Positions 33,872-34,510 of a stretch of 36,880 bases of DNA are shown here, one piece after another. Location: positions 1-36,880 of the forward strand of contig VGVY01000012.1 of assembly GCA_016873835.1 (NCBI GenBank), written 5' to 3'. This stretch comes from Ignavibacteria bacterium. Lineage in GTDB: Bacteria > Bacteroidota > Ignavibacteria > Ignavibacteriales > Melioribacteraceae. The position numbers were made by a program, and so were the translations under genes. The notes below the pieces were generated by a model. The model was not told the DNA's origin, did not search any database, and saw only the letters and a program-made list of their open reading frames with translations. The stretch's first letter is position 1, and each line of letters begins with the position of its first letter.

Positions 33872-33921
33872 GTAATTCTCTTTTAGGAATTACGCTTAAC
33901 ACTAGTGATTTTATAAATCAC
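33872..33921. repeat. Two short hairpins between epimerase and transposase genes
   Basis: GTAATTC (33872-33878) pairs with GAATTAC (33887-33893) over an 8-nt loop. GTGATTT (33905-33911) pairs with AAATCAC (33915-33921) over 3 nt. The second overlaps the transposase stop. Neither is followed by a T-run, so they are not classic terminators but may act as 3'-end structures of the convergent genes. Confidence 0.45.
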
Positions 33922-34465
33922 AGATATTTTCATTATTCTCTTTTTCAATTTCCCATTTGAGTGGATTTCCCTCAATATACTTTCTGATATTATAAAGCTC
34001 TCTTTCATTCCGAATAATTCTATCATAAAAACGTGGCTGCCAAGAGAAATTGTTATAACCATTTTTATTTGCCCAGCGTGTAACTGCAGCTTTGAATTTT
34101 CCTACAACATCGCCAAGTGGTAAAGACGCCATAGATGGCGTCTCATTAATTTGTTTGTTGTGAGACGGCATATATGCCGTCTCTACGGCGGGATTGATTA
34201 TAATTATGCCATGCACATGGTTGGGCATTATTATATAATAATCTATTTCTACATTTACAAAATGTTTGGGTATTTCTTTCCAATAATGCTCTGCTATTTT
34301 CCCTAATTCATTCAATATCATTATTTCTTTTACAACTTTCCCAAAATGTCTAACATGATTTTTTGTATTGATTGTTATATAATAATACCACGGATTAGAG
34401 TAATCCCATTCTTTCAATCTTGAGGATTCAATGCGGAATGTATTTTTAAATTTTGTCATCAACAA
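33911..34465 (-). CDS. REP-associated tyrosine transposase-like protein (Y1/HUH, RAYT)
   Basis: This 184-residue single-strand nuclease of the IS200/Y1 fold has an HUH motif (MPNHVHGIIII, His-Val-His) and the catalytic-tyrosine helix region WQPRFYDRIIRNERELYNIRKYI ending in EGNPLKW. RAYTs are domesticated relatives of IS200/IS605 transposases that act on REP hairpins near their own gene. Between HVHGIIIINP and GDVVGKFKAAVTRW lies a ~25-residue segment encoded by two REP-like palindromes (VETAYMPSH and NETPSMASL). A third unit of the same design lies 19 bp upstream of the ATG. Catalytic residues look intact, so it may be active. No IS200-type ends were identified. Confidence 0.88.
   Translation of the reverse strand: MLMTKFKNTFRIESSRLKEWDYSNPWYYYITINTKNHVRHFGKVVKEIMILNELGKIAEHYWKEIPKHFVNVEIDYYIIMPNHVHGIIIINPAVETAYMPSHNKQINETPSMASLPLGDVVGKFKAAVTRWANKNGYNNFSWQPRFYDRIIRNERELYNIRKYIEGNPLKWEIEKENNENICDL
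34120..34146 (-). repeat. REP-like palindrome unit 3, inside the transposase gene
   Basis: A 27-nt unit, inverted relative to the other two: GTAAAGACG-N10-CGTCTCAT on the + strand, with core CCATAGATGG. It differs from the reverse complement of the consensus at two arm positions. It encodes NETPSMASL of the transposase and lies 13 nt from unit 2, making an inverted pair like a BIME. Confidence 0.75.
34160..34186 (+). repeat. REP-like palindrome unit 2, inside the transposase gene
   Basis: A 27-nt unit GTGAGACG-N10-CGTCTCTAC with core GCATATATGC; the arms and core form one continuous palindrome from 34162 to 34183. It encodes VETAYMPSH in the transposase on the minus strand. It has the same orientation as unit 1. 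Confidence 0.82.
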
Positions 34466-34483: not shown

Positions 34484-34510
34484 GTGAGACGCCCGATCGG
34501 GCGTCTCTAC
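34484..34510 (+). repeat. REP-like palindrome unit 1, between NagB-LmbE and transposase genes
   Basis: A 27-nt unit GTGAGACG-N10-CGTCTCTAC with core CCCGATCGGG; the palindrome spans 34486-34507. It lies 9 nt past the stop of the NagB-LmbE gene and 18 nt before the transposase ATG, the usual place for a REP. It could also stabilise or end the upstream transcript. Confidence 0.82.

Follow-up and report, generated by a model that had tools for sequence, protein, structure and literature searches.

In-frame REP palindromes in a loop of a candidate subclass 2.4 RAYT transposase and their turnover among its relatives

The window analysed here, a stretch of 36,880 nucleotides from an Ignavibacteria bacterium, includes a gene on the minus strand (33911 to 34465) for a 184-aa protein that is identified, from its motifs and modelled fold, as a RAYT of TnpAREP subclass 2.4 with an inverted pair of its own REP class translated within a loop. 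Among its relatives, double-foot REPs have repeatedly landed in this loop and turned over there, and the core of the inner REP often changes jointly with the REPs that flank the same gene. The best explanation, to which a probability of about 0.68 is given, is that REPs of the element itself are repeatedly inserted or converted into a tolerant loop and are filtered by reading frame. The basic phenomenon is not new, as it was published in 2018 for subclass 2.4 (Quentin et al. 2018, PMC6006769). The main-text passages of that paper describe REPs within tnpAREP genes that leave the frame undisrupted and sit, as a rule, in a peripheral extension between HuH and Y, and treat in-frame REPs at this place as a hallmark of the subclass. 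The two-frame rule, the match of inner REPs to their own flanks, the turnover between sister genes and the half-gene breakpoints reported below were not found in those passages and are the additions made here.

The RAYT gene and its palindromes

The frame is open throughout. An open reading frame tool places its start at a TTG codon at 34465; the ATG two codons later, at 34459, is favoured by homologues and is the probable start. The HUH motif is formed by His83-Val-His85 of IIMPNHVHGII (codons at 34211–34219), and NHVH at residues 82–85 fits the subclass 2.4 motif NH[IFV]H. The conserved pair W142 Q143 (34037–34042) is the WQ that characterises the subclass and has been linked to recognition of the GTAG foot (PMC6006769). 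Tyr163 (33977–33979), presumed by homology to be catalytic, lies in YIEGNP; as compared with YIxNNP of subclass 2.4, YI and NP are kept and the fourth position is G, not N. The key residues of NHVH, WQ and YIEGNP are invariant or nearly so in an alignment of 44 relatives. Features shared with the passages on subclass 2.4, which corresponds to RAYT group 4 of Bertels, include NHVH, WQ, YIxxNP and GTAG REPs that flank the gene (PMC6006769).

The structure model of the protein (mean pLDDT 85.6) gave IS200/IS605 Y1 transposases as its top matches in Foldseek, including ISDra2 (E = 1.7e-6) and the E. coli TnpAREP-REP complex (PDB 4ER8, E = 3.4e-6). The E. coli enzyme would share both the fold and the HUH/Y chemistry; it belongs to subclass 2.2, and for that subclass no insertion separating the HUH strand from the following helix is listed in the literature. 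The assignment is based on motifs, fold and REPs, because curated models score under their cut-offs: NCBIfam NF047646 (REP_Tyr_transpos) gave 49.4 bits (E = 4.1e-13) against a cut-off of 80, and Pfam Y1_Tnp gave 22.7, just below its cut-off of 23.

In the model, residues 91–116 (34118–34195) form a loop between the HUH strand (83–90) and the next helix (117–134). This loop, which holds the REP-encoded residues, is predicted to be disordered (pLDDT about 50–66 by blocks). An insertion of variable length with REPs in frame is described at this position, between β3 and αC, in subclass 2.4 (PMC6006769).

Inner REP 1, GTAGAGACGGCATATATGCCGTCTCACA, occupies 34159–34186 on the minus strand including its GTAG foot, contains a perfect 22-nt palindrome at 34162–34183 and is read as VETAYMPSH (residues 94–102). 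Inner REP 2, AATGAGACGCCATCTATGGCGTCTTTA, is the inverted partner at 34121–34147 on the same strand; its palindrome at 34124–34143 has 20 nt (a stem of 9 and 2 unpaired) and is read as NETPSMASL (residues 107–115). The coordinates thus bear out the original prediction that two REP-like units are translated in frame between the HUH motif and the catalytic tyrosine; the size of 27 nt that it gave for the palindromes is replaced by 20–22 nt. The two units make up an inverted dimer with GTAG-like feet pointing outwards and, judged from this arrangement, look like a REPIN. A third unit, the upstream REP GAGACGCCCGATCGGGCGTCTC (34486–34507, no strand assigned), is a perfect 22-nt palindrome that extends to 34510 with one GTAG foot. 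It has the RAYT start on one side and the stop codon (34520) of a neighbouring 781-aa gene on the other and, being 12–13 nt past that stop codon, may double as the 3' hairpin of that gene.

All three palindromes have GAGACG...CGTCTC in common, inner REP 2 lacking the outermost pair, and their cores are unlike one another (GCATATATGC, CCATCTATGG and CCCGATCGGG). They are therefore one class and not one sequence, and the claim that the inner pair repeats the same palindromes as those upstream holds for the class only. Between the inner and flanking cores in the window the similarity is only 0.75; hence an origin of the inner REPs as plain copies of the upstream unit is unsupported. The core of inner REP 2 resembles both the inner and the flanking cores of a related locus, L065. 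Feet are single on the window REPs and double (GT[AG]G...C[TC]AC) in most relatives. The inverted dimer, the unlike cores and the single feet distinguish this gene from subclass 2.4 as presented in the passages of PMC6006769.

A chance origin of the inner palindromes is excluded. When the RAYT protein was recoded synonymously in 2000 trials, 0.45% of them yielded a palindrome with an 11-bp stem and 0.05% yielded two palindromes. A genome search for the class pattern with N10 between the half-sites, as proposed with the original prediction, gave 9 occurrences in 2.75 Mb when up to three mismatches were allowed, and none for the reversed control. In RNA folding of the inner-REP region, the hairpins were far more stable than those of shuffled sequences (z = -6.4).

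Inner REPs among relatives and their turnover

Genes with their flanks were gathered at 113 loci from the same genome, from relatives up to the phylum and from three outside loci (a KSB1 bacterium, a Parcubacterium and a Moraniibacteriota bacterium), the other homologues being relatives within one lineage. The parser called 80 loci intact, and the other 33 were counted separately. A palindrome lies in the HUH–Y loop of 62 of the 80 intact homologues, the remaining 18 having no recognisable intact inner REP, and also in many of the 33. Its density in the loop is 74 times that in the remaining coding DNA (69 palindromes in 7,269 bp versus 5 in 39,057 bp). The loop is 17–62 aa long with a REP (median 33.5) and 13–38 aa without (median 19), which, together with the modelled disorder, agrees with its description as tolerant. 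Where a REP could be recognised in the loop (about 64 loops), a decayed look was seen in just two, L036 and L104. In pairs sharing a core, inner REPs are better conserved as DNA, a comparison given no weight because the pairs were chosen after the cores were seen.

Several genes show other arrangements. In L170 (G048, contig C1, 559145) the RAYT loop displays a tandem expansion of half-REPs, so that VETGHA recurs about five times. RAYT genes with GGAA-type palindromes at their flanks are mostly without an inner REP (6/9, namely L010, L023, L034, L040, L054 and L056, versus 12/71 of the others; p = 0.003), and none of the 69 loop palindromes is of the GGAA type. L009, a second RAYT of the window's own genome (contig C114, 213–689), has a different inner REP, GTAGTGGATGCAAAGTTTGCATCCACTAC, and no further copy of this type (GTGGATGC...GCATCCAC) was found in that genome.

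The relation to the flanks was assessed at 34 loci having an inner REP plus any palindrome within 1 kb, using a half-site of 12 positions. At 16 of the 34 the inner half-site equals that of its own flank at 11 or more positions, as compared with about 1/33 (~3%) for the flanks of other loci, and the mean match to the own flank was reached by none of 20,000 permutations. Hence, across relatives, the REP in the loop belongs to the class flanking the gene. An inner REP also resembles its own flanks more closely than its counterpart in the nearest homologue (mean 0.78 versus 0.67, Wilcoxon p = 0.015), a modest result given that taking the best of several flanking palindromes against one or two inner ones favours the flanks. 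The original prediction that the enzyme inserted its own substrate repeats into a tolerant loop thus gains in the tolerance of the loop and in the REP class, and loses in the mismatch between inner and flanking cores in the window itself.

Gain or loss of the inner REP is frequent: on a protein tree built with the loop left out, its presence requires 13 changes, and well-supported branches force at least 8 of these. Cores are unlike in the well-supported sisters L066/L091, which differ in frame too, and L073/L100. No pair of an empty and a filled site was found in near-identical strains.

The preferred explanation is that REPs would enter the loop either as single strands inserted by the RAYT or through recombination with the REPs at the flanks, that copies breaking the frame or the fold would be lost, and that the disordered loop would make the remaining copies nearly neutral, so that the gene would permanently hold a repeat of the substrate type. 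Against it, the inner cores of the window are unlike its flanking core, and the near-universal inner REP could mean selection for the REP and not neutrality.

The joint change of cores could equally stem from recombination between REPs. The alternative that homologous recombination or gene conversion exchanges flanking with inner REPs and so drives the turnover, in place of RAYT transposition, is unlikely. It accounts for the match of inner REPs to their own flanks, and a deletion from an upstream to the inner REP would leave C-terminal half-genes with the inner REP at their start. Such half-genes exist: L117, L042 and L059 start at the inner REP and are preceded by unrelated DNA, and these starts, three cases only, suggest deletion or cleavage at the REP. 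However, the matches extend over about 28 bp, which is short for efficient homologous recombination, and similar REPs in unrelated genes would demand a route beyond local exchange.

Rather improbable is the proposal that selection maintains the inner REP as a control element, a hairpin that, when met by the enzyme or the ribosome, lowers RAYT expression or activity, or that links enzyme and substrate in horizontal transfer. The stable hairpins noted above could be encountered in the gene's own mRNA or in single-stranded copies of the gene, and those in the mRNA may have a regulatory role. Most homologues keep the inner REP despite large protein divergence, almost none of these REPs are decayed, and L009 keeps one of a type otherwise absent from its genome. 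On the other hand, the 18 intact homologues lacking a recognisable intact inner REP, the variable core, frame and copy number, and the presence of some REPs in unrelated genes of these genomes all speak against control. The related view that the inner REP is a maintained self-address or an autoregulatory hairpin is doubtful.

Reading frame of the inner REPs

In intact loci, 42 GTAG feet are read in frame 0, giving V-E-T..., 16 are read in frame 1, giving R-D..., and none is read in frame 2; the corresponding numbers in loci not called intact are 20, 1 and 0. Frame 2 is excluded because GTAG there reads as the stop codon TAG. The use of both available frames, and never of the third, indicates that the DNA palindrome rather than the peptide is maintained. 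Frame 0 peptides are alike (VET...SL), and frame 1 gives RD...VST from identical DNA; L091 and L011 have an identical core in different frames. The case that would have spoken for a coincidence of protein sequence, homologues with the same loop encoded by non-palindromic DNA, was not encountered: the homologues have different peptides in two frames and palindromic DNA. The idea that a protein motif like VETxxxxSL produces the palindromes by coincidence, which the predominance of frame 0 and its similar peptides might favour, is ruled out for practical purposes by the frame 1 peptides, the recoding null, the 74-fold enrichment in the loop and the L091/L011 pair.

REPs in other genes and significance

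In-frame REPs (V[EK]T...SL) also recur in C-terminal sorting domains of type IX secretion, at two homologous places, one after the NYPNPFNP...SVP strand and one in the G-Y-x-x-T-F segment. They were observed in L165 and L166 of the window's own genome (contigs C85 and C30), in L147, L148 and L149 (G132), in L152 and L155 (G220), and in L177 and L178 (G041). The six proteins tested passed the cut-off for the sorting domain, and sorting domains account for 3 of the 9 REPs of the window's own genome, about 0.05 being expected. In L147, L148 and L155 the native segment appears to be replaced by the REP with the length unchanged. Genome G041 has at least 12 identical copies of GTAGAGACGTCATATATGACGTCTCTAC on contigs C1, C3, C6 and others; both copies that were examined fall in type IX sorting domains, and the spread of the copies may thus be due to duplication of the domain and not to movement of the REP. 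Nothing relevant on REPs in these domains, and no relevant later work on inner REPs, was found in the open-access literature, which is weak evidence.

REPs of the GTAG/CGTC kind inside many genes were described by Di Nocera et al. (2013, PMC3733652), who likewise place them in frame in protein genes and presume them harmless in loops. The hosts named in the relevant passages are genes for DNA repair, replication and other functions, whereas here the host is the transposase itself. Rickettsia palindromic elements, cited there, are likewise palindromic repeats in frame in many proteins; they differ from the present case in that those passages name no linked transposase and in sequence class (CGTC-tagged) (PMC3733652).

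The inner REP is a readable record of the REP class with which a RAYT has recently dealt and offers a means of matching enzymes to their substrates in genomes. It illustrates that a repeat can turn into protein under a simple frame rule, that no TAG be read from GTAG. Because inner REPs match flanking ones, it becomes testable whether an enzyme renews its own inner copy. If the inner REP were a self-address, each subclass 2.4 gene would contain a specimen of the REP family it recognises, and the inner copy would be renewed whenever the core of the family changes.
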